A stretch of DNA of 64,000 nucleotides, from contig CAJBLH010000238.1 of NCBI GenBank assembly GCA_903953895.1, positions 62,001 to 126,000 of the forward strand, given 5' to 3'. Positions 23,791 to 58,713 of this stretch are shown here, piece by piece. Position numbers and translations under genes: made by a program. Within the stretch, counting starts at the first letter, position 1, and every line of letters begins with the position of its first letter. Below the pieces are notes generated by a model. That model worked only from the letters and a program-made list of their open reading frames with translations. It was not told where the DNA came from and did not search any database. The stretch is from an uncultured Desulfobacteraceae bacterium. Lineage in GTDB: Bacteria > Desulfobacterota > Desulfobacteria > Desulfobacterales > Desulfatirhabdiaceae.

Positions 23791-23897
23791 TATAGACTTT
23801 CAGAAAAATAATTTCGCTGCGTTATCGGTCGGGAATGGCCGAAAAAAGGCCTATTCCCTCCCTGCTGCCTTGCGAAATGAATTTTCTGAAAGTCTAT
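23791..23897. repeat. Palindromic dispersed element, copy 1 (107 bp)
   Basis: The element begins TATAGACTTTCAGAAAAATA and ends with the reverse complement TTTTCTGAAAGTCTAT. An inner hairpin centres on GGGAATGGCC and GGCCTATTCCC around an A-run. A second copy at 51497-51602 differs, as far as I can read, only by one base in the A-run, and a decayed inverted copy lies near 27331-27424. The terminal inverted repeats and small size resemble a MITE or REP-like element. This copy lies just upstream of the MscS gene, between it and the GH13 gene. Confidence 0.85.
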
Positions 23898-25476: not shown

Positions 25477-26835
25477 TTGAAACGGTTTCAAATGCCTTTT
25501 GTCCATAATGAAAAGTTGCTCGGCATATTGCATGATCGATACACTCCGGCCGATATCGCCGTCATTCGGAATTTTATCGAAACGCATGATGTGCTGACTT
25601 TTCCGCAGATCGGCGAAACCGGCCTGTTTCCGGCCGCTCGATGCTCCATTCATACCCGATACACCCAATATGACAGAATATGGGTACGCGACAACATCCA
25701 TATTGCCAACGCCCATCGCCTGACCGGAAAAATCGATGTTGCCCGTTCAACCCTGAAGTCTCTTTTTGCCATGTTCCGGGCGCAAAAGGAAAGATTCAGG
25801 CTGTACATATCCGGCGAAGTTCAGAGAAAAGATCTGTCCTGGAGACCGCATATTCGTTTTCTGACAGGGGACGGTGTGCAATTCGATTTCGAGCCATGGA
25901 ATTCCCAAAACGATGCGCTCGGTTATTTTCTGTGGTTTGCCTGCACCCTGATTCTGGAACGGATATATTTGCCTGAGCCCGAAGATATCGATTTGCTCCG
26001 TACGTTCGTTTCCTTTTTCGGCGCCATATCATTCTGGTCCGACGAAGATTCCGGCCACTGGGAGGAAGCCCCCAAGATCGAAGCGTCGAGCATCGGAACC
26101 GTCCTGGCCGGATTGGAAAAATATCGGCTGTTACTGAACCATTTGAATCGGGACGGGTGTTCAGATGAAAAACAACGGGTTGAGCGATTGTGCGACACAG
26201 CACGTTTGCACTTAAACGCCATTCTTCCGGCGGAATGCATTCAGATCGACAAGCGCAGGGATTTCGATGCAGCACTGCTCTTTCTGATCTTTCCCCTGGG
26301 GCTTCTGGATGGAGAGACTGCCGGAAGAATTGTGGGGCGGGTTGAATCCAATCTGAAAGGCGATTACGGTGTCAGGCGATACATCGGGGATCGTTTCTGG
26401 GGGCCCGACTATGATGACATTGTTCCGCTGGATCGCTGGACTGTGGATACCACCCGACATCCGGGAACACGCAAACGCCTTGTGGCCGTAACCCCAGGCG
26501 TGGATGAGGCGCAGTGGTGCATTTTCGATCCGCTGCTGTCGGTGATTTACGGCTTGTGGAGCAGAACAGCACTGTCGGACAGACAGCCGTTGCTTCAAAA
26601 ACAAATCCATTATTTCAATCGGGCGATGGGCCAGATCACCGGACCTGAAGCCGGAGAAAATGCTTATCGATGCCCGGAGCTGTATTACATGAAAAAAGGA
26701 CGTTACACCCACAACGCCGCTACGCCGCTGCTGTGGACACAGGCCAACCTGCTGGTGGCGCTCAAGATTCTTGAGGAAAATGTGGCGGAGTATGCGGTAA
26801 GAGCATTGAAAAATGAAATTTTCGATGGTAGCTGA
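25477..26835 (+). CDS. GH15-like (glucoamylase / phosphorylase-kinase-like) protein
   Basis: About 450 residues that read as an (alpha/alpha)6 toroid of the GH15 / phosphorylase-kinase alpha-subunit type: IWVRDNIHIANAH, WNSQNDALGYFLW, HWEEAPKIEASSIGTVLAGL and DRFWGPDY. In the family these aromatic and acidic patches form the sugar site. The start is uncertain: TTG at 25477 or ATG at 25492, neither with a strong ribosome site, probably because translation is coupled to the GH13 gene. The last ~10 codons lie inside a segment that is repeated at 44.4 kb, so the present C-terminus may derive from a recombination event. Confidence 0.75.
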   Translation: MKRFQMPFVHNEKLLGILHDRYTPADIAVIRNFIETHDVLTFPQIGETGLFPAARCSIHTRYTQYDRIWVRDNIHIANAHRLTGKIDVARSTLKSLFAMFRAQKERFRLYISGEVQRKDLSWRPHIRFLTGDGVQFDFEPWNSQNDALGYFLWFACTLILERIYLPEPEDIDLLRTFVSFFGAISFWSDEDSGHWEEAPKIEASSIGTVLAGLEKYRLLLNHLNRDGCSDEKQRVERLCDTARLHLNAILPAECIQIDKRRDFDAALLFLIFPLGLLDGETAGRIVGRVESNLKGDYGVRRYIGDRFWGPDYDDIVPLDRWTVDTTRHPGTRKRLVAVTPGVDEAQWCIFDPLLSVIYGLWSRTALSDRQPLLQKQIHYFNRAMGQITGPEAGENAYRCPELYYMKKGRYTHNAATPLLWTQANLLVALKILEENVAEYAVRALKNEIFDGS

Positions 26836-26956
26836 CCTGGTGTGTGTTACAGGCCACCGCCCCACCGGTACTGCCAGGCAATCCCAACCAGGGTGAAATC
26901 GCTTCCCGCACGGGTGTACACGCTGCTGCTGGTGAAAAGCTTGATCGAATTGTTCC
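26805..26956 (-). pseudogene. Fossil A: 3' end of a phenol-MetA-type outer-membrane protein gene
   Basis: This segment matches 44391-44543, the end of the outer-membrane gene at 44433-45425 plus the sequence just beyond it. It shares ATTGAAAAATGAAATT, TGTTACAGGCCACCGCCCCA and GCTGCTGCTGGTGAAAAGCT. The last codons (WQYRWGGGL and stop) are kept. The 5' part of the gene is gone; the match ends at GAATTGTTC, where fossil B begins. Confidence 0.85.
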
Positions 26957-26958
26957 GG

Positions 26959-27028
26959 TCACCATTGAAGAGGTGCATCGGATTCTTCTGGAGCATCTGG
27001 CATTGCAGGTTTTTTGAAACGAGGGCGT
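26959..27028 (+). pseudogene. Fossil B: 3' end of a lipoprotein hydrolase gene
   Basis: The segment matches the last ~70 bases of the hydrolase genes, 47535-47604 in the second copy. It retains the reading TIEEVHRILLEHLALQVF and stop, followed by GAAACGAGGGCGT as in the intact downstream sequence. It abuts fossil A on the left and fossil C on the right. Confidence 0.85.
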
Positions 27029-27029
27029 C

Positions 27030-27188
27030 GGAATTTCCAAGGAAACAGCTCTTCCGCGTTGGTGTAAAGCGTGTGGGGTGCTTGCGGCAGCCGGGGAGGG
27101 TGTCCCAAACAACGCTTTGTAACCTCGACCTGTGATGAGCTTGGGCTTCATTATCTATGCCAGGGGTATAAAAAATTCTTTTCTCATA
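27030..27188 (+). pseudogene. Fossil C: 3' part of an anSME (radical SAM) gene
   Basis: The segment matches 51087-51246, the region coding for the SPASM cysteine cluster of the sulfatase-maturating enzyme. Shared stretches include CCAAGGAAACAGCTCTTCCG and ACCTCGACCTGTGATGAGC. Scattered substitutions turn some cluster residues, and the upstream two-thirds of the gene is missing. Confidence 0.9.
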
Positions 27189-27246
27189 AGAGAATTAAAT
27201 TCGATACAGTCAAGACAGAAAAAATGTTGCCGGAAAAAACCCATAT

Positions 27247-27333
27247 TGTCCAGGTGCATGCAGATTGTATGAACGACTCGTATGGGCGACGCATGTGCGG
27301 GAAAGGTCAATGTAAAATGAGTCAATATGGAAA
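27247..27333 (+). pseudogene. Fossil D: 5' part of the Cys-rich repeat protein gene
   Basis: These 87 bases appear identical to 57086-57172, covering the end of the signal peptide and the first Cys repeats of the gene at 57039-57395. Neither the start codon region nor the second half is present. The 58 bp between fossils C and D have no match that I could find in the window. Confidence 0.9.
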
Positions 27334-27424
27334 TTGATTTCGCAAGGCAGCAGGAAGCTGATAATACTGTAGTATATCTCCAACCGATAACGCCGCGAAA
27401 ATATTTCTCTGAATATCTATAGAA
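27331..27424. repeat. Palindromic dispersed element, decayed inverted copy
   Basis: Read against the reverse complement of copies 1 and 2, it keeps ATTTCGCAAGGCAGCAGG at the left and CCGATAACG.CGCGAAA.TATTT.TCTGAA...CTATAG at the right. The central hairpin is replaced by unrelated sequence. It ends about 25 bp before the start of the small exported protein gene at 27448. Confidence 0.7.
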
Positions 27425-41153: not shown

Positions 41154-41205
41154 AGTGGTGGAACTACCGATGAAGGCAGTTCCTATCTGGAATGGAGTCG
41201 AACTA

Positions 41206-44349: not shown

Positions 44350-44432
44350 TTGGACATTGATGATACAGAAGGCGGAGTTCGCTGAAGACCATTGAAAAAT
44401 GAAATTTGCGATGGTAACTGACCCATCGTGTG

Positions 44433-45425
44433 TTACAGGCCACCGCCCCACCGGTACTGCCAGACAATCCCAACCAGATTGAAATCGCTCCCCGCACTGG
44501 TGTGTACGCTGCTGCTGGTGAAAAGCTTGATCGAATTGTTCGGGTTCACCGACATTGCCAATGTGGCGCCTACCCGTGAATTGTTTTGTAAATCATCGTT
44601 CTGCTCACCATCTAATGTCGTGCGCCCGCCGTAATCATTGGTTCCGCTCAGTGCCGCCCACATGCCACGGCCAAAATTGTACGTGATATGTAGCTGTGTG
44701 GTGGATACGGGGTCTTGATCAAGCGTACTGCCGCCGTAGAAATTGTCATTTTTGCTGAAAAAAAACACACCGGTGGAAAGCTCTATCGTAAGAGCCCCCC
44801 ATGCCTTGGAAATTCCGATATCCGGCTTGACAAACCAGCGGTTATTCCCCAGGTTTATCAACTTTTCACCATCATACTGACCGAGGGGAAGAGATGCCTG
44901 AACGCTGGCTCCGATAATTAAATCCTGATGGTAGTCGGTAAATTCTTCCAGCGACAGCGCAGGGGCGCCGTATAAATTGACCGAAAAACGAAATCGCGGA
45001 TCGTTTAACCCGGAAACATTGCGTTCTCGTGGTTGGCCCGCTACCATCGCGGTTCCGGACAAGTCGGAATACGGCAAAATCATATCGAATTTTCCTGATT
45101 TGCCCCAGACGTCCAGCGACCGTGCATATGCCAGGATGCCAGTATGCATCTTGACCTGCGCGTCCTTGATCGGTGACGAGGCTTCGGTTGACAGACCGCC
45201 GTCCGAATAGGAATAGCCTGCAAGCAGAAAATTGATCCCGACCGGCGTATTGACATAGGCTCTGGGTTCAATTTCTCCGGCATGTCCCATAGCTGCCGCA
45301 AAAAAGAGCGCAAATACGGCAGGCGCCACGCCTGACAGTTTGATCCTATCCCGATAGGTTATCAGGAGTGGATGACCGAGAATGACGCGAAAAAAACACC
45401 TTTTTCCTCGATTCCAATTCAACAT
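44433..45425 (-). CDS. Outer-membrane transporter-like protein (phenol MetA-pathway family, PF13557-like)
   Basis: A 330-residue protein with a signal peptide (about residues 10-52, ending MGHAGE after a long basic N-region). The mature part has alternating beta strands typical of a barrel: INFLLAGYSYSDGGLS, RSLDVWGKSGKFDMILPYSD, and a C-terminal WQYRWGGGL. It resembles proteins annotated in phenol and alkane degradation gene clusters as outer-membrane channels for hydrophobic compounds. Start 45425 was chosen as the first ATG near a plausible signal peptide; an open frame extends 35 codons upstream. It lies in reverse between the two hydrolase copies. Its 3' end is duplicated at 26805. Confidence 0.8.
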   Translation of the reverse strand: MLNWNRGKRCFFRVILGHPLLITYRDRIKLSGVAPAVFALFFAAAMGHAGEIEPRAYVNTPVGINFLLAGYSYSDGGLSTEASSPIKDAQVKMHTGILAYARSLDVWGKSGKFDMILPYSDLSGTAMVAGQPRERNVSGLNDPRFRFSVNLYGAPALSLEEFTDYHQDLIIGASVQASLPLGQYDGEKLINLGNNRWFVKPDIGISKAWGALTIELSTGVFFFSKNDNFYGGSTLDQDPVSTTQLHITYNFGRGMWAALSGTNDYGGRTTLDGEQNDDLQNNSRVGATLAMSVNPNNSIKLFTSSSVHTSAGSDFNLVGIVWQYRWGGGL

Positions 45426-45667
45426 ATCAAATTCCCTTGTAATGTCAAACGAGTAGCTGAAGAGTGCGCCACTGTCAAGACAATAATGAATCAAGTTTTT
45501 GAACTCCTCTTGCCTCCATTGGATTCTCATTTTAGAAATTGCATAAGAGCCGGATATGCTGTATCAGGAAGGACATCTATAGCTTTCAATGTCTGCCCCA
45601 CGATCGATCAATGATTTTTTAAGTTCTATAATTATTGGTGATTCCTATCTGCTGAGGAGACCAAGGA

Positions 45668-47593
45668 ATGGCAAACAGAATATATAAAATCACTATCCCG
45701 CTTCGATCCGAACCCATATCCCGGATTCATGCGCAGTGGATTCGTCTGATGGGGTGCAGTTTCCTGCTGATGCTGTCAGTTGCATGGCTGACCGGATGCG
45801 CAACACACGTCGGTGTAAAACCTGCCGGGTTAAGGGGCGCCTATGTGGAAATAAACGCTTCTGCGTTGACGGAATCAAAACCAGGCGCCAACACGCGGAT
45901 TGTCCTTCATCGCTACGATCTGGTTAAGACATTCGAAAATGATCCGGAAGCGGCACTCGCCATCCTGCATCAGAAGGCTGTCGGCGAGGATGACAGACGG
46001 GATCTGCGTTTTGCTTTATCGGAATTGAATTTTCTGTATGCAGAGAAACTGCAAAATAAGCAGGATAAACAAAAAAAGCTGTCAGCGCCTGATTTTTTTC
46101 TAGCTTCAGCCGTCTATGCATATCAGTATCTGCTGGGAAGCAGCCGGGAAGATCCGCCAAGCCCCTATGACAATCGGTTCCGCGAAGCCTGCATCCTCTA
46201 TAATCGTGCACTGGGAAAGGGGCTGGCCACAGGGGAAGATGGCCGACTCGAACTTCGCGACGGCATCCTGAAATTACCGGTCGGGTCATTGCCGCTGTCC
46301 ATTATAAACAAAACATTTCGAAGGGATGTATCTGAATTTGATCAAATTCTATGTTCAGACGATTTCCTCGTGCGAGGTTTCACTGTCAGAAACCGGTCCG
46401 CCGGCATGGGACTGCCCCTGATTGCAGTGAATTCAAAAGCGAAAGTTTTATCTGGAGAGCGAGTGATTTCTCTAACGGCTTTCCTGAGAATCGTAGGAGA
46501 CAGGGATGAGATTGGGCAAGGTACGGCACGGGCGGAACTGGAGTTGTACGACACCTTTGATACCACAGAATTGGATGTCAACGGACGGATGGTCCCTCTC
46601 GAAACAGACTTAACCGCGACCATAGCCTATGGATTGGATAATTCCGATGCATGGTCAGCAGGGTTGCGACGGTTTTTCATATTCGAAGAAGAAATTCAGC
46701 CGCATCTGGTGATGATCCAACCCTATGTGCAGGGCCGCATCCCGGTGATCTTTGTACATGGAACTGCCAGTGATCTGGTGTGGTGGGCGGAAATGCTCAA
46801 CACCCTTTACTCTGATCCACAATTGCAGAAGCATTTCCAGTTCTGGTTATTCCGGTATAACAGCAGCCGTACGATTGTGGACTCGGCTGCAGCTCTTCGG
46901 GAAGTCCTGGTGCAGAAACGCCGCGAACTCGATCCGAATAATCAGGACCCGGCGATGGATCAGATGGTTGTTATCGGACACAGCCAGGGGGGGCTTCTGA
47001 CAAAACAAACCGTGATTCGAACCGAAGACAAAATCTGGCGTTCTTTGAGTGATACTCCGCTGGATCAAATGAACATCGACCCGGCAGGCAAAGAATTGAT
47101 TCATAAGTGGTTTTTTATCGAGCCGCTGCCCTTTGTCAAGCGGGTTGTTTTTATTTCAACGCCCCACCGCGGCAGTTTTCTGGCAGCGGACTGGGTGCGT
47201 AATATCGTCCGCCGCATCGTCAGTCTGCCGGTTACAACGATCAGGGGGGCTGCATCCATTCTGAGCCTGGAAGGGCAACTGCGGCTTCCTTCCCGCCTGG
47301 AGGGCAGGTTGCCGACCAGCCTGGATGCCATGTCTCCGAATAATCAAGCCCTGTTGGTTCTTGCCGATATTCCCATTGAACCCGGCGTGACATCGCATTC
47401 CATCATTGCCGTCAAAGGCGATGGCGATCCCCTGGAAGGCGACGATGGTGTGGTCGAATATAAAAGCGCCCACATGGACGAGGTGGCGTCGGAGTTTATC
47501 GTGCGATCCGAGCATTCCTGTCAGGAACATCCTTTCACCATTGAAGAAGTGCGTCGGATTCTACTGGAGCATCTGGCATCGCAGGTTTTTTGA
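45668..47593 (+). CDS. Lipoprotein alpha/beta-hydrolase (lipase/esterase-like), copy 2
   Basis: A 641-residue paralogue of the gene at 41206, alignable end to end without gaps as far as I can see. It has the lipobox AWLTGC, VFVHGTASDLVWW and the nucleophile motif VIGHSQGG. Most differences are conservative, so both copies are probably active. A GAGGAG site precedes the start. An 84-bp gap separates it from the Ser-type sulfatase, so it is likely the first gene of the hydrolase-sulfatase-anSME transcript. A fragment of its 3' end is found at 26959. Confidence 0.88.
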   Translation: MANRIYKITIPLRSEPISRIHAQWIRLMGCSFLLMLSVAWLTGCATHVGVKPAGLRGAYVEINASALTESKPGANTRIVLHRYDLVKTFENDPEAALAILHQKAVGEDDRRDLRFALSELNFLYAEKLQNKQDKQKKLSAPDFFLASAVYAYQYLLGSSREDPPSPYDNRFREACILYNRALGKGLATGEDGRLELRDGILKLPVGSLPLSIINKTFRRDVSEFDQILCSDDFLVRGFTVRNRSAGMGLPLIAVNSKAKVLSGERVISLTAFLRIVGDRDEIGQGTARAELELYDTFDTTELDVNGRMVPLETDLTATIAYGLDNSDAWSAGLRRFFIFEEEIQPHLVMIQPYVQGRIPVIFVHGTASDLVWWAEMLNTLYSDPQLQKHFQFWLFRYNSSRTIVDSAAALREVLVQKRRELDPNNQDPAMDQMVVIGHSQGGLLTKQTVIRTEDKIWRSLSDTPLDQMNIDPAGKELIHKWFFIEPLPFVKRVVFISTPHRGSFLAADWVRNIVRRIVSLPVTTIRGAASILSLEGQLRLPSRLEGRLPTSLDAMSPNNQALLVLADIPIEPGVTSHSIIAVKGDGDPLEGDDGVVEYKSAHMDEVASEFIVRSEHSCQEHPFTIEEVRRILLEHLASQVF

Positions 47594-47677
47594 AACGAAG
47601 GCGTTGGCACACCGAAATCTTAATAGAGTGGGTTTGTTTACAGCGAAACAATCTATCAGTCAAAAGGAGCGACCGTC

Positions 47678-50101
47678 ATGAAACGAAAAACTTTGTCCGC
47701 AACATTCTGTGTTGCCTTGACGGCTGTCTGTACCGCGACAGCCGGTACTCAGACAACTCCGGATCGCACAACGCTGCCGATCCCGGAGCCCAGTTTTCCC
47801 CATAGTACCGTTTTGGATGCTCGAAATGCCACCCCCCCGGAGCGTTTCGAAGTGAGAGCGCCAGACGGCGCCCCGAACGTTCTTATCATCCTTATCGATG
47901 ATATGGGGTTCGGCCAGTCCAGTGCATTCGGTGGTCCCATCAATATGAAGACAGCGGAACGACTGGCTGACAAAGGCCTGCGCTATAACCAGTTTCATAC
48001 GACAGCCCTGAGTTCGCCGACCCGGGCAGCGCTGTTGACCGGCAGAAATCATCATACGACCAACACGGGATCCATCATGGAAACCGCAACGGCTTTTCCG
48101 GGAAACACGGGGCAACGTCCCGAGAGTGTGGCGCCTCTGGCGGCGATGCTGCGCTACAACGGTTACTCGACGGCTGCATTCGGGAAAAACCACGAGACGG
48201 CTGCTTGGGAAGTGAGTCCTTCCGGGCCGACCGACCGGTGGCCGACAAGAAGCGGCTTTGATAAATTCTATGGTTTTATGGGGGGCGAATCGAATCAGTG
48301 GGCTCCGGCCCTGTATGATGGCATGACAAAAATTGAGGTTCCAAAGGATTCGAACTACCATTTCATGACCGACATGACGAATCAGGCCGTCAAGTGGATG
48401 CAGTCGGTAAAGTCTCTGACACCGGACAAACCTTTCTTTATGTATTTTGCACCGGGCGCAACCCACGCACCGCACCATGTGCCCAAGGAATGGATCGCCA
48501 AATACAAGGGCAAGTTCGATCAGGGATGGGACAAGCTGCGGGAAGAGACTCTTGCTCGCCAGATCAAGTTGGGCGTGGTGCCAGCGGATACGAAGCTGGC
48601 GCCCAAGCCGGGGGCCATCAAGGATTGGAACAAGCTGACCGTGGATGAGAAAAAACTGTTTGCCCGCCAGATGGAAGTGTTTGCCGGTTTCGGCGAATAC
48701 GCGGACACCGAGATCGGCAGACTTGTCGATGTCATCCAAGACATGGGCCAGCTCGACAACACGCTGATCTTCTATATTGTCGGTGACAACGGCGCCAGCG
48801 CCGAGGGCGGCATGAGCGGTATGTTCAACGAAATGACCTATTTCAACGACGTAGTAGAAACGGTTTCCGATGTCATGAAACACTATGACGAGCTGGGCGG
48901 ACCGAATACTTACAGCCACTATGCCGCAGGCTGGGCGGTTGCCGGAGATACGCCATTTACCTGGACCAAGCAGGTGGCATCGAACTACGGCGGAACCCGT
49001 AACGGCATGGTTGTCCACTGGCCGAAAGGGGTAAAGGCCAGGAATGAAATCCGTACCCAGTGGCACCATGTGATCGATATCGCTCCCACGGTACTGGAAG
49101 CAGCGGTCCTGCCGGAGCCGAAAGTGGTAAACGGTATCCCCCAAACCCCGATCGAAGGGGTGAGCATGCTCTATTCTTTTAATGACGCCCATGCCAAGGA
49201 CCGCCATCTGACCCAGTACTTCGAGATTTTCGGCAACCGCGCCATCTATCGGGATGGTTGGCTTGCCGGCACAGTACACCGGGCGGCATGGGAGACTGAA
49301 GTACGCGCAACACTGGATAAGGATACCTGGGAGCTTTATGACACGCGAAACGACTTCAGCCTGGCCACGGACCTGGCAGCGAAGGAACCGGCAAAGCTCA
49401 AGGAACTTCAGAATTTATTCATGGATGAGGCTGTCAAGTACAACGTGCTTCCCATCGATGACCGGGTTTTCGAGCGCATCAACGCGGCCCTTGTCGGCAG
49501 GCCCGACCTGATGGCCGGCCGCACATCGCTCACGGTTTACGAAGGGATGACCGGAATGTCGGAAAATGTATTCATCAACACGAAGAACCGGTCGCACACG
49601 ATTACAGCCGAGGTCAACCTTCCCAAAAGCGGTGGAAGGGGCGTGATTCTTGCTCAGGCCGGGCGTTTCGGCGGATGGAGCCTGTACCTGAAAAACGGTG
49701 TGCCGACATATACATACAACTTTCTGGGATTGAAACGTTTTACCATCGCTGCCAAGAAGCCGCTGCCGGCAGGAAAGGCAACCATCCGCTATGAGTTTGC
49801 CTATGACGGCGGTGGGTTAGCCAAAGGTGGGACCGGTACGATTCTTGTCAATGATATGAAAGTGGCAGAGGGGCGGATCGAACGCACGCAGCCCATGATA
49901 TTTTCGGCCGACGAAGGTGCCGATGTCGGTGAAGATGGCGAAACGCCGGTTGTAGAGAATTATGGCATTCCAGCACCTTATCAATTCACCGGCAGGATCG
50001 ATAAGATCACCATTGACGTGCAGGAAATGAAGGCGGCAGACAAGGCCAAAGAGGACAGACTCCGTGCGCAAGCCGCTCATGAAAAAGTTCAGTCGGATTA
50101 A
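47678..50101 (+). CDS. Ser-type sulfatase (arylsulfatase family), exported
   Basis: An 807-residue periplasmic enzyme with a signal peptide (to about residue 23). The metal-binding Asp74-Asp75 is in LIDDMGFG. The active-site signature reads SSPTR at 112-116, where many long relatives have CSPTR. Ser112 would be converted to formylglycine, which the oxygen-dependent FGE cannot do but anSME can. GDNGASAEGG and HAPHHVPKEW are further active-site stretches. About 240 C-terminal residues form a beta-rich domain (RSHTITAEVNLPKSGGRG). It should cleave a sulfate ester, with size and neighbours suggesting a bulky or hydrophobic one. AAAGGAG precedes the start; its 3' end overlaps the anSME gene. Confidence 0.93.
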   Translation: MKRKTLSATFCVALTAVCTATAGTQTTPDRTTLPIPEPSFPHSTVLDARNATPPERFEVRAPDGAPNVLIILIDDMGFGQSSAFGGPINMKTAERLADKGLRYNQFHTTALSSPTRAALLTGRNHHTTNTGSIMETATAFPGNTGQRPESVAPLAAMLRYNGYSTAAFGKNHETAAWEVSPSGPTDRWPTRSGFDKFYGFMGGESNQWAPALYDGMTKIEVPKDSNYHFMTDMTNQAVKWMQSVKSLTPDKPFFMYFAPGATHAPHHVPKEWIAKYKGKFDQGWDKLREETLARQIKLGVVPADTKLAPKPGAIKDWNKLTVDEKKLFARQMEVFAGFGEYADTEIGRLVDVIQDMGQLDNTLIFYIVGDNGASAEGGMSGMFNEMTYFNDVVETVSDVMKHYDELGGPNTYSHYAAGWAVAGDTPFTWTKQVASNYGGTRNGMVVHWPKGVKARNEIRTQWHHVIDIAPTVLEAAVLPEPKVVNGIPQTPIEGVSMLYSFNDAHAKDRHLTQYFEIFGNRAIYRDGWLAGTVHRAAWETEVRATLDKDTWELYDTRNDFSLATDLAAKEPAKLKELQNLFMDEAVKYNVLPIDDRVFERINAALVGRPDLMAGRTSLTVYEGMTGMSENVFINTKNRSHTITAEVNLPKSGGRGVILAQAGRFGGWSLYLKNGVPTYTYNFLGLKRFTIAAKKPLPAGKATIRYEFAYDGGGLAKGGTGTILVNDMKVAEGRIERTQPMIFSADEGADVGEDGETPVVENYGIPAPYQFTGRIDKITIDVQEMKAADKAKEDRLRAQAAHEKVQSD

Positions 50102-51368
50102 AGAAAACATCCCGGATGCCATCCATGTGTTGGCCAAACCCATCGGTCCGGCCTGCAATCTGGACTGCGAGTACTGCTTTTACCTGGAGAAGCGGGCGCT
50201 GTTCGGGTCTGGGGAAAAGTTCCGAATGTCCGATAACACCCTGAGTGCATTCATAAAGAACTATATTGCCTCACAGCCCACACCGGTTGTTGAGTTTGTC
50301 TGGCAGGGCGGAGAGCCGACCTTGTTGGGGCAGGCGTTTTTCCAGCGGGTCATTGCGCTGCAACAACCGTATGCCAGGCAAAAAACCATCCGGAATGTGA
50401 TCCAGACCAACGGAACCCTGCTGGACGAAGCGTGGTGCCGGTTTCTGAAAAAACATGACTTTATGGTGGGTATCAGCCTGGATGGTCCGAAAAACATCCA
50501 CGACCGTTATCGCCGGGATGGCAAGGGCCGGGGAACGTTTGAAAAAGTGATCCGCGGGCTAAGGCTTCTACAGAGACACGGGGTCGAATACAATGTCATG
50601 GCCTGTGTGGCCCGTGATACGGCGGTAAAACCGCTCGAAGTTTACCGGTTTTTCAAGGATGCAGGAGTGGAGTTTATCCAGTTTACTCCGATTATCGAGC
50701 GTCCGGCCGATGAATGCAGCGCTAAACAAGGTCTGCGACTGGCTGCTTTCCCTGCTCTGGATCGGCCGGCAGTGCAGACCGAAGTCACGGACTGGTCGGT
50801 ACTGCCTGAGGATTATGCTGATTTCCTGATTGCCATTTTTGAAGAATGGGTGCATCAGGATGTGGGCAATGTTTTTGTCATGAATTTTGAATGGGCTCTG
50901 AATGCATGGATCGGCAATCCATCGCCCGTCTGCGTACATGCAGAGCAGTGCGGTCGTTCTCTGGTGATCGAGCATAACGGCGATGTGTTTGCCTGTGATC
51001 ATGGCGTATATCCACAGTTTCGGCTTGGCAGCATTCTGACAGATACCTTCCCGGCCATGGTACGGAAATCTCTGGAATCACAATTTGGAATTTCCAAGGA
51101 AACAGCTCTTCCGCGCCGGTGTAAATCGTGTGAGGTGCTTGCCGCATGCCGGGGAGGGTGTCCCAAACATCGCTTTGTAACCTCGACCTGTGATGAGCCT
51201 GGGCTTCATTATCTATGCCCGGGGTATAAAAAATTCTTTTTTCATATTCGAAAATATCTTAGAGTCATGGCGCAGCTTCTGGAATACGGGCTTCCGGTGA
51301 CCCTGGTGATGCAGGCGCTGAAAAATCCCCTCGCCATCACCCTCCCACAGAATGCCGTGGATAAGTGA
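50064..51368 (+). CDS. Anaerobic sulfatase-maturating enzyme (anSME), radical SAM/SPASM
   Basis: A 434-residue enzyme (from GTG 50064; ATG 50079 is the alternative, five codons shorter). The radical-SAM cluster is CNLDCEYC (Cys31, Cys35, Cys38). The SPASM region has CVHAEQCGRSLVIEHNGDVF, ACDHG, CKSCEVLAACRGGC and CPGYKKFF, which bind two more [4Fe-4S] clusters. It oxidises the active-site Ser or Cys of sulfatases to formylglycine without oxygen. It overlaps the Ser-type sulfatase by 38 bp and probably also serves the Cys-type one. A 3' fragment is found at 27030 and an internally deleted relic at 56894. The palindromic element follows 129 bp downstream. Confidence 0.95.
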   Translation: MRKPLMKKFSRIKENIPDAIHVLAKPIGPACNLDCEYCFYLEKRALFGSGEKFRMSDNTLSAFIKNYIASQPTPVVEFVWQGGEPTLLGQAFFQRVIALQQPYARQKTIRNVIQTNGTLLDEAWCRFLKKHDFMVGISLDGPKNIHDRYRRDGKGRGTFEKVIRGLRLLQRHGVEYNVMACVARDTAVKPLEVYRFFKDAGVEFIQFTPIIERPADECSAKQGLRLAAFPALDRPAVQTEVTDWSVLPEDYADFLIAIFEEWVHQDVGNVFVMNFEWALNAWIGNPSPVCVHAEQCGRSLVIEHNGDVFACDHGVYPQFRLGSILTDTFPAMVRKSLESQFGISKETALPRRCKSCEVLAACRGGCPKHRFVTSTCDEPGLHYLCPGYKKFFFHIRKYLRVMAQLLEYGLPVTLVMQALKNPLAITLPQNAVDK

Positions 51369-51496
51369 TTCCTTTGCGCATGCATCGATGGTGCATGGGA
51401 GGCTGGTACGATTCCACGCGAGATAGTGCTTTTCTTTTCTTGAAGAAATATCTCAAGATATTGAATGGCTTCATATGTTATTTCAGTTTTTTGAGA

Positions 51497-51602
51497 TATA
51501 GACTTTCAGAAAAATAATTTCGCTGCGTTATCGGTCGGGAATGGCCGAAAAAGGCCTATTCCCTCCCTGCTGCCTTGCGAAATGAATTTTCTGAAAGTCT
51601 AT
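51497..51602. repeat. Palindromic dispersed element, copy 2 (106 bp)
   Basis: Same sequence and orientation as the copy at 23791-23897, except for one fewer A in the central A-run. It ends 31 bp before the start of the DUF3604 gene and lies in the gap after the anSME gene. Near-identity of the two copies over their whole length argues for recent mobility or gene conversion. Confidence 0.85.
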
Positions 51603-51633
51603 AGTATAAACCCAAACAAAAGGGAGAGAGACT

Positions 51634-53589
51634 ATGAATAAAAGAGTTTTAAGTATCACATTTCTTATTATCCTCATGGTCGCTGGTCTGACACTGACAG
51701 CGCACGCCGCCGATGAAGCAGCTACAGATCCCTGCCTCGGAACAGCCGACCATGACAAGCTTGATAAGGTTTTTCCATCAAAACCGAATTATTCGCCCTA
51801 TGCTGGGCGCAATTTCCCAACGCGGCCGTATTTTGGCGACACGCACCTTCACACATCTTTTTCAATGGACGCAGGTGCATTTGGCGCTCGCCTGACACCG
51901 CGCGATGCCTATTTGTTTGCCAAAGGCAAGGAGATCACTTCAAACACCAATCAGCCGGTCAAGCTTTCCCGATCTCTCGATTTTCTGGTCGTGGCAGATC
52001 ACTCCGACGGAATGGGTTTCTTCCCGCAGTTAATGGGAGGCGATCCGGAACTGCTAACCACGCCGCAAGGCAGAAAGTGGTATGACCAGATCAAGGGCGG
52101 CCAGGGTGCCGATGCGGCTTTGGATATCATCATGAGCTTCGGTCTGGGTAAAATGCCCAAGGGGTTCCCGGTTCCGGGCACACGCGCCTACCGCGATGCC
52201 TGGCAGGAGACCATAAAGGCGGCCGAGGAGGCGAACGATCCCGGTCGCTTCACAGCGTTCATCGGGTACGAGTGGACCTCGAATACGGCTGCCAACAACC
52301 TGCACCGCAATATAATTTTCCGAGACAATGCTGACAAAGCAAGCCGGGTCGAGCCACATACAACTCTGAAGCCACTTGGAAGCGACAATCCTGCCGATCT
52401 GTGGAAATGGATGTCCGCATACGAGGAGAAGACGGGTGGTGATGTGCTGGCCATCGCCCACAACGGCAACCTCTCCAACGGCACGATGTTCCCCATGGTC
52501 GAGGCCTTCGGAAAGAAGATCGACCGCGAGTATGCCGTGACGCGCGCCAAGTGGGAGCGGCTTTACGAAATGACCCAGACCAAGGGAACTGGCGAGGCGC
52601 ATCCATACCTTTCTCCCAACGACGAGTTCGCCGACTTCGAGATATGGGATAAGTGCAACCTTGACGGCAGCATGGCAAAGACAAAAGACATGCTGAAATT
52701 CGAATATGCCCGCGAGGCACTTAAAAACGGGCTTTATCTCGAATCGAAACTCAGTGTCAATCCCTACAAGTTCGGTATGATCGGCAGCAGCGATGCGCAC
52801 AACGGTCTCGCCGCGATGGAGGAGGAGAACTTTTTCGGCAAGACCGCACCTCAGGAACCCAGCCCGGAACGGATGACCAAAACCTTCATCAAACATTCCA
52901 AGACAGGCGTAACGATCATGGACTGGGAGGTTTCCGCATCAGGTTACGCCGCCGTGTGGGCCACGGAGAACACACGCGAGGCAATCTTCGATGCGATGCA
53001 GCGGCGGGAAACCTATGCCACGACCGGTCCGCGCATGTTCGTGCGCTTCTTTGGCGGCTGGGATTTTGAGCCTAATGACGCACACAATCGTTTGCCGGCT
53101 GCCATCGGATACAGCAAGGGCGTGCCCATGGGCGGAGATTTAAGTGCAGCTCCTGCCGGAAAGGTACCCACATTCCTGGTTGCAGCACTAAAGGACCCCA
53201 TCGGCGCCAACCTCGACCGCATCCAGATTATCAAGGGCTGGCTTGATGCCAGGGGTGACGTTCAAGAGAAGATCTACGACGTTGTCTGGGGCGACGCGGA
53301 CAATCGCAAGTTTGGTGCCGATGGTAAGCTCCCTTCAGTTGGCAGCACCGTGGATGCGGAGAATGCCACCTGGACCAACACCATCGGCAACCCGGAATTG
53401 ATCACTGTCTGGAAGGACCCTGATTTCGATGCCAAGCAGCGAGCGTTCTACTACGCCAGGGTTCTGGAAATCCCGACACCCCGATGGACCGCCTACGATG
53501 CGAAGCGCTTCGGCTTCAAACCACTGCCGGGCACCACGATGACGCTCCAGGAACGCGCCTACACGTCACCCATCTGGTACACACCATAA
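51634..53589 (+). CDS. DUF3604 family exported protein (PHP-like)
   Basis: A 651-residue protein with a signal peptide (to about residue 25, AHAADE). The mature part starts with the DUF3604 hallmark YFGDTHLHTSFSMDAG, in which the D-x-H-x-H resembles the metal site of PHP-type phosphoesterases. FLVVADHSDGMG, MGNDAH-like SSDAHNG and a C-terminal GTTMTLQERAYTSPIWYTP are also present. The biochemical activity of the family is not established; a metal-dependent hydrolase is likely. GGGAGAG precedes the start. It is the first gene of a block with a parvulin and three HupE/UreJ-like genes; HupE proteins are linked to nickel or cobalt, so metal supply for this enzyme is possible (inference). Confidence 0.88.
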   Translation: MNKRVLSITFLIILMVAGLTLTAHAADEAATDPCLGTADHDKLDKVFPSKPNYSPYAGRNFPTRPYFGDTHLHTSFSMDAGAFGARLTPRDAYLFAKGKEITSNTNQPVKLSRSLDFLVVADHSDGMGFFPQLMGGDPELLTTPQGRKWYDQIKGGQGADAALDIIMSFGLGKMPKGFPVPGTRAYRDAWQETIKAAEEANDPGRFTAFIGYEWTSNTAANNLHRNIIFRDNADKASRVEPHTTLKPLGSDNPADLWKWMSAYEEKTGGDVLAIAHNGNLSNGTMFPMVEAFGKKIDREYAVTRAKWERLYEMTQTKGTGEAHPYLSPNDEFADFEIWDKCNLDGSMAKTKDMLKFEYAREALKNGLYLESKLSVNPYKFGMIGSSDAHNGLAAMEEENFFGKTAPQEPSPERMTKTFIKHSKTGVTIMDWEVSASGYAAVWATENTREAIFDAMQRRETYATTGPRMFVRFFGGWDFEPNDAHNRLPAAIGYSKGVPMGGDLSAAPAGKVPTFLVAALKDPIGANLDRIQIIKGWLDARGDVQEKIYDVVWGDADNRKFGADGKLPSVGSTVDAENATWTNTIGNPELITVWKDPDFDAKQRAFYYARVLEIPTPRWTAYDAKRFGFKPLPGTTMTLQERAYTSPIWYTP

Positions 53590-53605
53590 TGGTGATAGGA
53601 TAATC

Positions 53606-54517
53606 GTGCAAGAATCTTTTAAAAAATTGATCCGTGAGCCACTGGTTCACTTCCTGATCATCGGTACAGGGCTGTTCCTTCTCTTCGGATGGGGGGGCGG
53701 CCCTGTGCCGCTTCCGGCCGGGCAGTCCGGGTTGCCGTCGACAAAAATTGTCATCGCACCGTCCGATATAGATCAAATGACGGCAGCGTTTACACGGACA
53801 TGGCAACGTCCGCCGACCGAAACGGAAGTGAAGGTTCTTGTCGATAACTTTGTCCGTGACGAGATTTACTACCGCGAGGGACTGGCTATTGGCCTGGATC
53901 GGGATGACAGCGTAATCAGGCGACGGATGCGTCAGAAGATGGAATTCATCTTCGAGGACATCACTGCCCAGGCGGAACCAACAGATGATGAACTCCTTGC
54001 GTATATGAAGACACATCCCGATGCTTACCTGATGGATCCGCAGATCGCATTTCGCCATGTCTATTTCAATGCCAACATGCGGGGAAAGAACGCCGAAGCC
54101 GATGCCCGGCAGATCCTTGCACGTCTTAATGAAGGCATGGACGCAGAACTTGCCGGAGACCCCTTTATGCTGGGTGCGGAAATAAGTCTCTCGCCGCTTT
54201 GGGATATCCGGAAACAATTCGGCGAAGAGTTCAGCAGAAACCTGTCAGGGCTGATGAGTGAAAAATGGGAGGGGCCGTTACGCTCTGGCTTCGGGCTTCA
54301 TCTGGTTCTTGTCATACAGCGCGTGGCAAGCCGCCTGCCTGAACTGGAAGAGGTTCGGAAGACAGTGAAAAGGGACTTGATGGCTGAACGGCAGAAGGAG
54401 CTCATGGATGCCGCGTACGCCAAACTCAGGGACCGGTACACCGTGGAAATCGAAAGGTCTGAGACCAAGGCGCTCTCCTCGGCTGAAGAGAAAATGCCCC
54501 AGGGGGTGCTTCGATGA
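53606..54517 (+). CDS. Membrane-anchored parvulin-type peptidyl-prolyl isomerase
   Basis: A 303-residue protein that starts at GTG 53606, 16 bp after the DUF3604 stop. One membrane helix lies at about 15-30 (FLIIGTGLFLLFGW). A SurA-like helical part (RTWQRPPTETEVKVLVDNFV) and a PpiC-type rotamase domain follow: QIAFRHVYFNANMRGKNAEA to EGPLRSGFGLHLVLV. It should assist folding of an exported protein, most simply the DUF3604 protein encoded before it. The stop overlaps the next start by four bases. Confidence 0.88.
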   Translation: MQESFKKLIREPLVHFLIIGTGLFLLFGWGGGPVPLPAGQSGLPSTKIVIAPSDIDQMTAAFTRTWQRPPTETEVKVLVDNFVRDEIYYREGLAIGLDRDDSVIRRRMRQKMEFIFEDITAQAEPTDDELLAYMKTHPDAYLMDPQIAFRHVYFNANMRGKNAEADARQILARLNEGMDAELAGDPFMLGAEISLSPLWDIRKQFGEEFSRNLSGLMSEKWEGPLRSGFGLHLVLVIQRVASRLPELEEVRKTVKRDLMAERQKELMDAAYAKLRDRYTVEIERSETKALSSAEEKMPQGVLR

Positions 54518-55521
54518 ACCGAACGGCGATCGTTGCGCTGGCGCTGGTGCTGTGTGCCGGAACGAATACAATCGTCCTTTCTCATGAGTCGCAGCCCGGG
54601 ATACTCGAACTCAGGCAGGTTTCCAGGGATCGCTATGAAGTGACTTGGCGTGCGCCGATCTACTATGGCCGGCCGCATCCTGCCCGGCTTGTATTGCCTG
54701 AGGGCTGGAAGGATACGGTCGAACCAACGGTGAGGATGCTCCCTGACTCACAGGTCTTCCGGCGTGTCGTGACCGTCGGTGACAGGGGCGTGGAAGGAAT
54801 CGACCTGCGATTCACGGGCCTTGAGAAAACCGTAACGGATGTCTTTGTGAGATTGAACCGGCTCGACGGCACCATGATGACAGTTGTCGCACGGCCGTCA
54901 AAGCCTTTTGCGAAGCTACGGGGTGAGCGGGCCTGGCATGTAACGGCTGGAGAGTTTATCGGCCTTGGGTTTCATCACATCCTCTCGGGGGTCGATCACC
55001 TGCTCTTTGTCTTGGGGTTGCTTCTGATCGTCAATGGCAGAATGATTCTGCTGAAGACCATTACATCTTTTACAGTGGCGCACAGCATCACATTGGCCGC
55101 TGCCACGCTGGGGTATGCGAGTGCCCCGCTGCCGCCGCTCAATGCGGCCATCGCTCTGTCGATCCTGTTTCTCGGCCCCGAGATCGTCCGCTCGTGGAAC
55201 GGACAGACGAGCCTGACGATCCGCTATCCCTGGGTCGTGGCTTTCCTGTTCGGATTGCTGCACGGCTTCGGGTTTGCCAGCGGCCTGACAACAACCGGCA
55301 TGCCCAAATCGGAGATCCCGCTGTCGCTGCTTTTCTTCAATGCCGGGGTCGAAGCAGGTCAGCTCGTCTTTGTGTTCACAGCGCTTGCCCTGGTGCGGTC
55401 GTTCAAAATCCTGGAAGTCCAGTGGCCTCGCTGGGCCGAAGCACTGCCCGGGTATGCGGTCGGCAGTCTTGGGGCGTACTGGACAATCCAGCGGACGGCT
55501 ATTCTGATTGGAGGGTTTTGA
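54514..55521 (+). CDS. HupE/UreJ-family membrane protein with extracytoplasmic N-terminal domain
   Basis: A 335-residue protein. A signal peptide (ending VLSHESQ) and a ~125-residue extracytoplasmic domain precede a membrane domain of about seven helices. The His-rich start GLGFHHILSGVDHLLFVLG and the motif FGLLHGFGFASGL match the HupE/UreJ_2 family. In better-known members these His residues pass nickel or cobalt. It is coupled to the parvulin gene by an ATGA overlap. Confidence 0.88.
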   Translation: MNRTAIVALALVLCAGTNTIVLSHESQPGILELRQVSRDRYEVTWRAPIYYGRPHPARLVLPEGWKDTVEPTVRMLPDSQVFRRVVTVGDRGVEGIDLRFTGLEKTVTDVFVRLNRLDGTMMTVVARPSKPFAKLRGERAWHVTAGEFIGLGFHHILSGVDHLLFVLGLLLIVNGRMILLKTITSFTVAHSITLAAATLGYASAPLPPLNAAIALSILFLGPEIVRSWNGQTSLTIRYPWVVAFLFGLLHGFGFASGLTTTGMPKSEIPLSLLFFNAGVEAGQLVFVFTALALVRSFKILEVQWPRWAEALPGYAVGSLGAYWTIQRTAILIGGF

Positions 55522-55525
55522 GAAT

Positions 55526-56134
55526 ATGAGATGCATCCGGAGTTCTACAGGACCATCCATCGTCTTTGTCATGGCTTTATCTCTGCCGTGGAGTTCACCC
55601 GCTCTGGCACATGTCGAGCAGGGTCAGGCTGCCGGATTCCTGATCGGTCTGCAGCACCCCTGGTCAGGGTTTGACCACGTTCTGGCCATGATCGCAGTGG
55701 GGTTGTGGGGGGCGCAACTGGGCGCTCCCGCAATGTGGCTGTTGCCAGTAACGTTTCCAATGGTGATGGCATTCGGCGGAATGCTCGGCCTGATGGGCGT
55801 CAAGCTGCCGGGAATCGAAATCGGCATCGCACTGTCTGCGGTCATGCTCGGAGTGATGGTACTGGCAGAGGCACGGCCGAAATTGATGCTGGCAGCGTCA
55901 CTGGTTAGCTTTTTCGCGGTTTTCCACGGCCATGCCCACGGTACGGAACTTCCACCGGGACAAAACGGTCTGCTCTACAGCATGGGTTTTGTCATTGCCA
56001 CGGGATTTTTGCACGGACTTGGGATTTTGCTCGGCCTGCTCCACCGCTGGCCCGCGGGCAAACTTGCCTTGCGGAGTGCTGGCGCGTTTATTGCCGTTAT
56101 GGGCGTGACTTTTCTCTGGGGTGCGCTGAAGTGA
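55526..56134 (+). CDS. HupE/UreJ-family metal transporter-like protein
   Basis: A 202-residue membrane protein with a signal peptide (ending ALAHVEQ). It has the HupE motif HPWSGFDHVLAMIAVGLWG and FHGHAHGTELP, giving the conserved His/Asp pattern associated with nickel or cobalt permeation, with about six membrane helices. Start 55526 has a GGAGG site 10 bases upstream inside the end of the preceding gene. The stop overlaps the next GTG start. Confidence 0.88.
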   Translation: MRCIRSSTGPSIVFVMALSLPWSSPALAHVEQGQAAGFLIGLQHPWSGFDHVLAMIAVGLWGAQLGAPAMWLLPVTFPMVMAFGGMLGLMGVKLPGIEIGIALSAVMLGVMVLAEARPKLMLAASLVSFFAVFHGHAHGTELPPGQNGLLYSMGFVIATGFLHGLGILLGLLHRWPAGKLALRSAGAFIAVMGVTFLWGALK

Positions 56135-56745
56135 GAACATGGCGTACAAAACATGCAGGGCTTGGAGGCGTATTGGCCGGCATCGCCTCCCTGTGCTGTC
56201 CTTCATCCGCCGCCGCTCATCTGGTGATGACCGGCATGGGTCCGGTTTACGACGGAATCGGCCATCTCCTGTTGACACCCGAGGACCTTGTTGCGGCGCT
56301 GTCACTTGCGCTGTACGCGGGACTTCGGGGGCCCATTTCCGGAAGAAGAACGATGTTCCTGCTGCCGTTCGCCTGGCTCATCGGGGGAATTGCGGGGTTA
56401 GCGGTGAACGCCTTGCCTACGTTCCCCGTCTCCGCCGTATCCTTTCTTGTCACAGGCGGACTGGTGGCTGCGGACTTTTACATGCCGGTTTCTGCCGTTA
56501 TGGTACTTGGGATCGTATTCGGTTTTGCTCATGGTTTTCTTAACGGTGTTGCACTGAATGAAGGAGCAGGCATTTTGGGACTGCTCGGCATCATGATAAT
56601 GCTTTTTATTCTTACAGCGTTTGCAGCAGCCCTTGTCGTATCGCTCAATAAACCCTGGGCAAGGATTGCCGTCCGCGTGTCCGGGAGCTGGACATTTGCT
56701 ATCGGATTGCTGATGCTCGGATGGTTCATCCGTGAAGCCAAGTGA
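56131..56745 (+). CDS. Divergent HupE/UreJ-like membrane protein
   Basis: A 204-residue protein that begins at GTG 56131, overlapping the previous stop. After an N-terminal signal-like stretch ending SSAAAHLVMT it reads GPVYDGIGHLLLTPEDLVAA, then about six helices, with FGFAHGFLNGVALNEGAG near the middle. The His and Asp pattern of HupE is only partly kept, so its metal role is less certain than for the two genes before it. It ends the DUF3604-parvulin-HupE block. Confidence 0.75.
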   Translation: MRTWRTKHAGLGGVLAGIASLCCPSSAAAHLVMTGMGPVYDGIGHLLLTPEDLVAALSLALYAGLRGPISGRRTMFLLPFAWLIGGIAGLAVNALPTFPVSAVSFLVTGGLVAADFYMPVSAVMVLGIVFGFAHGFLNGVALNEGAGILGLLGIMIMLFILTAFAAALVVSLNKPWARIAVRVSGSWTFAIGLLMLGWFIREAK

Positions 56746-56893
56746 TGGTATCATTTTCACGTAATAGATCACTTCGAATATGGCCAATCATGAACTAAGT
56801 GGAACTTGAGTTTCTTCTCACATATAATGAGCACTCTTGTGCAACATCTGAGGACATGATATTTTTCAACATGCTATCTCAAAAAAACTAAAT

Positions 56894-56962
56894 TTTTGAA
56901 TGGGCTCTGAATGCATGGATCGGCAATCCATCACCCTCGCACAGGACACCGTGGATAGGTGA
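56894..56962 (+). pseudogene. Internally deleted relic of an anSME gene
   Basis: The left part, TTTTGAATGGGCTCTGAATG to GGCAATCCATC, matches anSME at 50885-50923. It is joined directly to ACCCTCGCACAG and onward to the stop, matching 51336-51368. About 410 bp between these points is missing; the join falls in a short shared word (ATCrCCC). The relic ends 76 bp before the Cys-rich gene. Confidence 0.85.
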
Positions 56963-57038
56963 CTGGAATAATCGCTTGATTCTTCTGGAAATCGCGTGGT
57001 GAAGTTGTGGTGGCCACAAAAACAAGAAAGGAAAACCC

Positions 57039-57395
57039 ATGAGATACAGGATCATCGTTTTTCTCGTTATTACCCTGTCGGTAGCTGTCCAGGTGCATGC
57101 AGATTGTATGAACGACTCGTATGGGCGACGCATGTGCGGGAAAGGTCAATGTAAAATGAGTCAATATGGAAAGGTACTCTGTGCCAGAGAAGGAGGTGGC
57201 GCCGCCAACAATAAAAACGATAATGTTCAGTGCGGAATCGGATATTGTATCGTGGACGATTACAATCGGGTGTGGTGTTCCACAATACCGGGCGGGAAAG
57301 CTTATATCGATGAGAACGGCAAAATTGTCTGTGCCGGAGAGTGTGAACGGGGTAAGGCATCCTACTGCGAAGATGCCAAGGTTGCGGAAGATTGA
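57039..57395 (+). CDS. Small exported Cys-rich repeat protein, function unknown
   Basis: A 118-residue protein with a signal peptide to about residue 21 (VQVHAD). The mature part holds ten Cys. The spacing C-x4-C-x9-C occurs twice: first around CGKGQC and YGKVLC, then around CGIGYC and YNRVWC. A preceding C-x9-C and a final C-x3-C-x7-C extend the pattern. The regular spacing suggests tandem disulfide-linked hairpins in the periplasm; no haem motif occurs. I do not recognise the family. AAAGGAAAA precedes the start, and the gene lies 28 bp upstream of a FadL-type channel gene. Fossils at 27247 and 56894 show it next to anSME sequence. Confidence 0.8.
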   Translation: MRYRIIVFLVITLSVAVQVHADCMNDSYGRRMCGKGQCKMSQYGKVLCAREGGGAANNKNDNVQCGIGYCIVDDYNRVWCSTIPGGKAYIDENGKIVCAGECERGKASYCEDAKVAED

Positions 57396-57423: not shown

Positions 57424-58713
57424 ATGGAAAGACCAAAATTAAAATGCTTTTTCTGGTTGATCGTTTTGCTGGTTGCTGAAGTTGTGGCTGTCCATGGATC
57501 GCTCTGGGCCGGCGGGATTTCACTGTACGAGATCGGAACGCCCGATCTGGGGCTGGCATCTGCCGGCTATGCCGCCCGCGCGCAGGATGCTTCTACGGTC
57601 TTTACGAATCCAGCGGGGATGAGTTTTCTTGAAACTTCCCAGGTGATGGGCGGGTTGCAGACACTTTACGGCAATATGGAATTCAGCGCCAACCTGGGTA
57701 CCACCGTTTCTGGCAGTAACGGTGGGAATGCTGTTGGTTGGCTTCCGGGAGCAAGTCTTTTTGCCACCCAGAAATTGAACAAGGATTGGAGCATCGGCTT
57801 TGGCATGCTTTCCTATTTCGGCCTCAGCGAAAGCTATGACGACAATTGGGTTGGCCGCTACTATGTCAAGAAATCATCCCTGATCGGAATGACGCTGACG
57901 CCTGCCGCCAGCTACCGGGTCAATGACTGGCTCTCTCTTGGGGCCGGTCTCAATATGATGTACGGTTATCTCGACACCGAGGTTGCCGTCAACAATTTAG
58001 GGGATACGCGACCGGACGGGCAGCTCAAAATCAAGGACACCGAGTGGGGCTATGGTGGAAACTTTGGAATTCTGGTGGAGCCGATGACCGGAACTCGCTT
58101 CGGGCTCACCTATCTGACGGAAGTCAATCTCAAATTTTCCGAAATACCTGAATTCAGCGGTCTCGACACCGGCCTGGAAACCCTTTTAAGAAATCGGGGG
58201 CTGACGACAAACAATCTGGACTTGAGCATGAACGTTCCTCAGATGGTCATGTTCAGCGCCAATCGGAACGTGAATGAAAAATGGTCAATTTTAGGCAATA
58301 TCGGTTGGCAGAACTGGTCCCGGTTCGGCATGGTCGATGTCGGGATCAACTCAACCGATCCCCGAACCTTGACGGTGGATAACGATTACAAAGACACTTG
58401 GCATGTGGCCCTGGGTACCCAGTACCATTATTCTCCGTTATGGACGTTCACCGGCGGTATTGCCTATGACAGCTCCGCCGTCGACAGCGACAAACGAACG
58501 GTCACCCTCCCCATGGCAGAGGCCTGGCGGTTTGCTTTGGGCACGCAGTATGCCATCCGTTCAGACCTGACGCTCGGCGTAGCCTATGAGTTTATGTGGA
58601 ATGGCGATATGTCCGTGAACCAGTCCCGCGGTACTGAGGCAGGAACGGTGACGGGCGCATATCACAACGCCAGTTTCAGCTTTGTTGCACTGAATCTGAG
58701 CTGGAAGTATTAG
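57424..58713 (+). CDS. FadL/OmpP1/TodX-family outer-membrane channel
   Basis: A 429-residue protein with a signal peptide (to about residue 30). The mature N-terminus GISLYEIGTPDLGLASAGYA and the hallmark NPAGMSFLE form the hatch region of FadL-type barrels. The chain ends in FVALNLSWKY, an aromatic outer-membrane terminus. Such channels carry long-chain fatty acids or aromatic hydrocarbons through the outer membrane. With the Cys-rich protein gene just upstream and sulfatases nearby it may import a hydrophobic sulfated or desulfated product (inference). Confidence 0.92.
   Translation: MERPKLKCFFWLIVLLVAEVVAVHGSLWAGGISLYEIGTPDLGLASAGYAARAQDASTVFTNPAGMSFLETSQVMGGLQTLYGNMEFSANLGTTVSGSNGGNAVGWLPGASLFATQKLNKDWSIGFGMLSYFGLSESYDDNWVGRYYVKKSSLIGMTLTPAASYRVNDWLSLGAGLNMMYGYLDTEVAVNNLGDTRPDGQLKIKDTEWGYGGNFGILVEPMTGTRFGLTYLTEVNLKFSEIPEFSGLDTGLETLLRNRGLTTNNLDLSMNVPQMVMFSANRNVNEKWSILGNIGWQNWSRFGMVDVGINSTDPRTLTVDNDYKDTWHVALGTQYHYSPLWTFTGGIAYDSSAVDSDKRTVTLPMAEAWRFALGTQYAIRSDLTLGVAYEFMWNGDMSVNQSRGTEAGTVTGAYHNASFSFVALNLSWKY

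Follow-up and report, generated by a model that had tools for sequence, protein, structure and literature searches.

Origin of a five-gene block beside a sulfatase maturase

How a block of genes for a DUF3604 protein, a parvulin and three HupE/UreJ proteins came to lie between an intact gene for an anaerobic sulfatase maturase (anSME) and the remnant of a second one is the question raised by a locus of an uncultured Desulfobacteraceae bacterium, whose genome is 5.47 Mb in 315 contigs. The window, the whole stretch of 64,000 nucleotides that was analysed, is part of contig C238. Reading rightwards from 41 kb there are two lipase-like genes, a sulfatase, anSME, a 107-bp palindrome and the five genes of the block, and past the last of these, HupE3, come the 69-bp anSME relic, a Cys-rich gene and FadL (Table 1). 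The lipase-like genes lipA and lipB (41155-43131 and 45668-47593) are 83% identical over 1.95 kb, which is a local duplication, and a gene of the MetA-pathway-of-phenol-degradation family lies between them on the opposite strand.

The intact anSME scores 487.8 bits against the TIGR03942 equivalog model, for which the curated cutoff is 349.45, and thus belongs to that family; it is predicted to be a formylglycine-forming sulfatase maturase, with a sulfatase gene directly upstream. The DUF3604 protein matches PF12228 over its full length (profile positions 2-591 of 591) above the gathering score and is a member of this family. The profile matches, together with the alignment of the relic, bear out the sequence-only reading that the block is flanked on the left by an intact anSME and on the right by a 69-bp internally deleted relic.

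Table 1. Features of the window, with coordinates, strand and the matches or copies that identify them
Feature	Position	Strand	Match or remark
Fossil F1	26784..26963	+	copy of 44371-44550, 89%
Fossil F2	26954..27031	+	copy of lipase 3' end 47530-47607, 90%
Fossil F3	27030..27188	+	copy of anSME 51087-51246, 94%
Fossil F4	27247..27333	+	copy of Cys-rich gene 57086-57172, 87/87
Fossil F5	27331..27421	-	shortened, inverted member of the palindromic MITE-like family
Sulfatase	47678-50101		directly upstream of anSME, which overlaps its 3' end
Intact anSME	50064..51368 (start 50064/50094)	+	NCBIfam TIGR03942; Radical_SAM + SPASM
107-bp imperfect palindrome, MITE-like	51497..51603	.	ends TATAGACTTTCAGAAAA.../...TTTTCTGAAAGTCTATA; high-copy in own genome
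DUF3604 protein	51634..53589	+	PF12228, 812 bits
Parvulin-type peptidyl-prolyl isomerase (PpiC-type rotamase)	53606..54517	+	PF13145, 34.5 bits (cutoff 27)
HupE1, N-terminal non-membrane region + HupE_UreJ_2 domain	54514..55521	+	PF13795, 137.8 bits
HupE2	55508..56134	+	PF04955, 183.7 bits
HupE3	56131..56745	+	PF04955, 40.1 bits (cutoff 23)
Relic piece 1	56894..56927	+	identical (34/34) to anSME 50885-50918
Relic piece 2	56928..56962	+	anSME 3' end 51334-51368 including stop codon, 30/35
Cys-rich small secreted protein	57039..57395	+	seen only in this genus (sampled genomes)
FadL/TodX outer-membrane transporter	57424..58713	+	PF03349, 240.9 bits

The palindrome between anSME and the block is one of at least 36 copies genome-wide, and the 36 that were compared with their flanks all have unrelated flanks. 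It has the features of a MITE, being short and non-coding with terminal inverted repeats, many copies, unrelated flanks and TA ends. A second copy within the window lies at 23791-23897, and TA is found at both ends of family members. As the vehicle of the block this element was ruled out, the family being spread genome-wide with no copy bounding the block on the right.

The remnant of a second maturase gene

The two pieces of the relic meet at CCATC, a pentamer common to both anSME sites, with 415 nt missing between them and the reading frame lost; the join is, to judge from its sequence, a typical microhomology deletion. None of 17 homologous anSME sequences matches piece 1 better than 31/34, so the relic is a local paralogue of the intact anSME. 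Chance is excluded as its source: none of the shuffles contained a match to a 24-nt probe from the relic, and close anSME-like DNA is confined in this genome to the relic itself, a fossil near 27 kb and one paralogue match at 75%. Past the stop codons of the intact anSME and the relic the sequences do not match. The relic begins 148 bp after HupE3 and ends 76 bp before the start codon of the Cys-rich gene.

It is highly improbable that the relic is a mis-assembly or a recently pasted fragment unrelated to the arrival of the block. Its length of only 69 bp and the distribution of its differences (0/34 in piece 1, 5/35 in piece 2; p=0.054) would fit such an origin, but the relic runs up to the anSME stop codon, its two pieces join cleanly at a microhomology and it carries its own substitutions; it also sits where the order anSME-small ORF-FadL predicts the end of an anSME.

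Distribution of the block

A search for the block in other genomes was proposed from the sequence alone, and all five genes are present in Pelobacter sp. UBA6093 and in the genomes G541, G530 and G917, with a three-gene core on Rhizobium plasmids. In G541 the order is DUF3604 x2-PpiC-HupE1-2-3 and in G917 it is PpiC-HupE1-2-3-DUF3604, both without a nearby anSME; in G530 there is no anSME as far as the contig reaches, which ends soon after the module. Several lineages have the genes for DUF3604, PpiC and HupE1 together, in varying order, and the gene content of these genomes indicates that DUF3604-PpiC-HupE1-HupE2-HupE3 is an independent module. A FadL-like gene (27%) follows the module in G541, thus the proximity of module and FadL-type gene is not unique to the window locus. 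In the G917 copy (L258, G917:C24) the DUF3604 gene is broken, with query residues 132-316 unmatched, a DDE_Tnp_1 transposase adjoins PpiC and a Mfd-like helicase gene lies on the other side.

Homologues of DUF3604 are patchy in the order: with the window genome counted, 8 of 114 sampled genomes have one, and 32 of 389. No other member of the genus that was sampled has one, and the window genome holds no further trace of the block.

The closest arrangement is that of Pelobacter sp. UBA6093 (DIWZ01000032.1), where all five genes occur in the same order, with DUF3604 at 82%, and are followed by an anSME 176 bp after HupE3, so that adjacency of block and anSME exists elsewhere. In the stretch read it differs from the window in having no anSME before the block, no Cys-rich gene and no FadL match. 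There are two anSME copies in this genome, and the trailing one belongs to another anSME clade than the window anSME. This trailing copy (L121, G114:C15) is nearly full length with a frame break near residue 111; it may be decaying too, or the break may be a sequencing error. The spacing, similar to that between HupE3 and the relic, could suggest that the block travelled as block-anSME in the Pelobacter order and that the relic is its own trailing anSME. This is unlikely, as the relic matches the local anSME at 34/34 and the Pelobacter trailing copy at 26/34, the latter clusters with the other Pelobacter anSME, and the module stands without an anSME in G541, G917 and the visible part of the G530 contig.

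Relatives of the maturase gene

The contig search for anSME used the best 80 of 432 pattern matches (79 loci), with 384 relatives reported, and the likely orthologues are a group of 63-72% identity within those best 80. Thirty-three loci (L113-L145) were mapped, with downstream ORFs read in ten. In the anSME tree the window groups with L114 and L115 (96/95) and the Pelobacter anSMEs are placed elsewhere. In both L114 and L115 a small ORF separates anSME from the FadL downstream, with no block at that place. The anSME and FadL matches of L125 lie 49 bp from each other and those of L122 have one gene between them, neither with the block there, whilst G019 has sulfatase, FadL and anSME in a span of about 12 kb, ordered differently and lacking DUF3604.

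The DUF3604 tree has a different shape, with the window joined to Pelobacter UBA6093 (100/99), then to G541 and the Rhizobium plasmids (5 rows, 100/100), and with the order-mates outside. The HupE1 tree places the window with Pelobacter and G917 at 92/92, below the starred level. The discordance of the DUF3604 and anSME trees, along with the block-free order in L114 and L115, supports an insertion between anSME and FadL. As the block is also found elsewhere without an anSME, it does not look native to the cluster, and we argue from these comparisons that it is not an old part of it.

The opposite reading, in which anSME-block-anSME-Cys-FadL is ancestral for the whole cluster and relatives have lost the block, is very unlikely. 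The Pelobacter region and the downstream genes of the window do share Gly-zipper and Y59375 homologues, and the fossil near 27 kb keeps the gene order of the window; against this the two trees disagree, and a DUF3604 of any kind is present in just 2 of the 17 genomes that gave the best anSME matches. Relatives consistently carrying anSME-DUF3604-HupE-Cys without a second anSME, which would have made the block ancestral, were not seen, and the sole other genome found with block and anSME adjacent has two anSME copies.

Codon use of the block and its flanks, a comparison proposed from the sequence alone, did not discriminate, the block being near background with a mild excess for DUF3604 only. 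Codon usage and GC were set aside as a test of foreign origin, with the block only mildly off and other genes of the window further off.

The Cys-rich gene and the fossil

In the fossil (26784-27421) pieces F1-F4 keep the order and orientation of the main locus, and it looks like a collapsed collinear copy of everything from 44371 to 57172, from which, compared with the main locus, about 3.0 and 3.5 kb have dropped out between F1, F2 and F3. The sequence-only reading held that in both relic and fossil anSME sequence is followed directly by the Cys-rich gene, and took this as a sign of an ancestral adjacency. The order stands and the directness does not, given the 76 bp at the relic and the 58 bp of unmatched sequence that part F3 from F4 in the fossil, F4 lacking the first 47 nt of the Cys-rich gene. 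This 58-bp gap has no match that beats shuffles to the anSME tail, the block, the gap between HupE3 and relic or the leader of the Cys-rich gene.

As other pieces of the fossil are separated by kilobase-sized losses, its anSME-Cys junction may be one more deletion. Pieces F1-F3 differ from the main locus by about 6-9% whereas F4 is 100% identical, and with 0/87 differences in F4 against 30/390 in F1-F3 pooled (Fisher p=0.003) it follows that F4 may have been added later or gene-converted. The large losses, the gap and the unequal divergence make the fossil weak evidence of an ancestral anSME-Cys adjacency, and that part of the earlier claim is not upheld as stated. The fossil agrees with most homologues in having Trp at one codon where the intact anSME has Arg, which suggests that the fossil copy probably split off before this change.

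Genomes in which anSME is directly followed by the Cys-rich gene, also suggested as a check, were not found among the 389 sampled of the order. Three genomes of the genus, and no others of these 389, were found to carry the Cys-rich gene itself; in G002 and G006 its homologues sit in unrelated surroundings that are not near anSME, with FabD- and HemA-like neighbours in G002. Its place in the window may therefore be a local rearrangement.

Arrival of the block

We consider it likely that the five genes form a self-contained module which has spread horizontally and which entered a cluster of the order sulfatase-anSME-[small gene]-FadL beside anSME, where it now parts the intact anSME from a second local copy decayed to 69 bp. 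The two routes first put forward were duplication of the cassette or insertion between two copies; insertion beside or into a duplicated anSME is supported by the data, which do not decide between routes or the order of events. The window brings together three adjacencies, namely that of sulfatase and anSME, that of block and anSME, found also in Pelobacter, and the order anSME-small gene-FadL of L114 and L115. We infer that the insertion used or accompanied the anSME duplication. On one simple route the incoming DNA would have carried the block next to an anSME, and a single crossover between this and the resident anSME would leave an anSME copy on each side of the block, giving all three adjacencies at once. 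The right copy would then have lost its 5' part and the 415 internal nt at the 5-nt microhomology. The absence of differences in piece 1 counts against this, since the donor anSME would need to have been very close to the resident one, or the copies homogenised.

Duplication of anSME in place followed by insertion of the block between the existing copies would also yield all three adjacencies, and differs from the single crossover only in the order of events. It is a tentative but serious alternative, given that the relic is a local paralogue, that local duplications are common here (lipA/lipB and the fossil) and that the two Pelobacter anSMEs are also lineage-internal paralogues (82%). It needs two independent events at one point, however, and no directly tandem anSME pair occurs in the 33 mapped loci of the best 80 matches.

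No recombinase is found among the five block genes, which are thus not classed as a composite transposon or integrative element, and no repeats or target duplication bound the block, the sole flanking repeat being anSME sequence. Among sampled members of the genus only the window genome has this anSME and the block, and with one genome sampled per species no empty site was found in a close relative.

Possible function and comparison with known systems

The block may combine a periplasmic, metal-dependent hydrolase-like DUF3604 protein with a foldase and with HupE proteins that capture metal and resemble permeases, and act outside sulfatase maturation itself. This proposal draws on motifs seen by eye, THLHTSF (HxH) and ADHSD (DH) in DUF3604, and on published metal-binding HupE/UreJ_2 proteins (PMC12537917). 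No relative of DUF3604 was found among PDB sequences, and an AlphaFold model from two sequences (pLDDT 29.4) was unusable for comparison with the PHP fold. A full-text literature search found no described function for the DUF3604-parvulin-HupE set, which is widespread, yet almost absent from the literature, DUF3604 being named in a single paper among the search results. It is conceivable, if rather doubtful, that the module is a mobile periplasmic metalloenzyme unit that repeatedly lands beside sulfatase/anSME genes, either because anSME serves as a recombination site or because the systems cooperate, with Pelobacter UBA6093 and the window as two independent cases.

The Ang-1/HupE_UreJ_2 'anglerase' proteins bind metal (PMC12537917), and HupE1 of the window resembles them in that PF13795 follows an N-terminal region and a His stands at the expected position past the signal peptide; it differs in that its metal binding is putative and the cleavage site was judged by eye. 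In all three HupE (54514-56745) the apparent signal peptide is directly followed by a His, as in those proteins, in the motifs LSHES, LAHVE and AAHLV.

The Rhizobium plasmids (e.g. NZ_CP071455.1, NZ_CP022566.1) carry the first three genes of the module with order and strand unchanged, under the annotation DUF3604 - peptidylprolyl isomerase - HupE/UreJ, with DUF3604 74% identical to that of the window, but this set is plasmid-borne and lacks HupE2, HupE3 and an adjacent anSME. The sulfatase-anSME-FadL clusters of L114, L115, L122, L125 and G019 have the same three genes close together as in the window, and that of L125 also shares YSC84, Gly-zipper and MFP homologues with it, whereas all five differ in having a DUF1254-type gene and no block between anSME and FadL. 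Set beside these, the window offers a readable case of the rebuilding of a sulfatase cluster, in which a module of separate ancestry parts the maturase from its older neighbour and the displaced anSME duplicate decays through microhomology deletions. The processes are all of known kind, namely lateral acquisition of a module, gene duplication and pseudogene decay by microhomology deletion, and the locus is a well-documented but fairly ordinary record of transferred and decaying genes in which the DUF3604-parvulin-HupE set is the single uncommon element.
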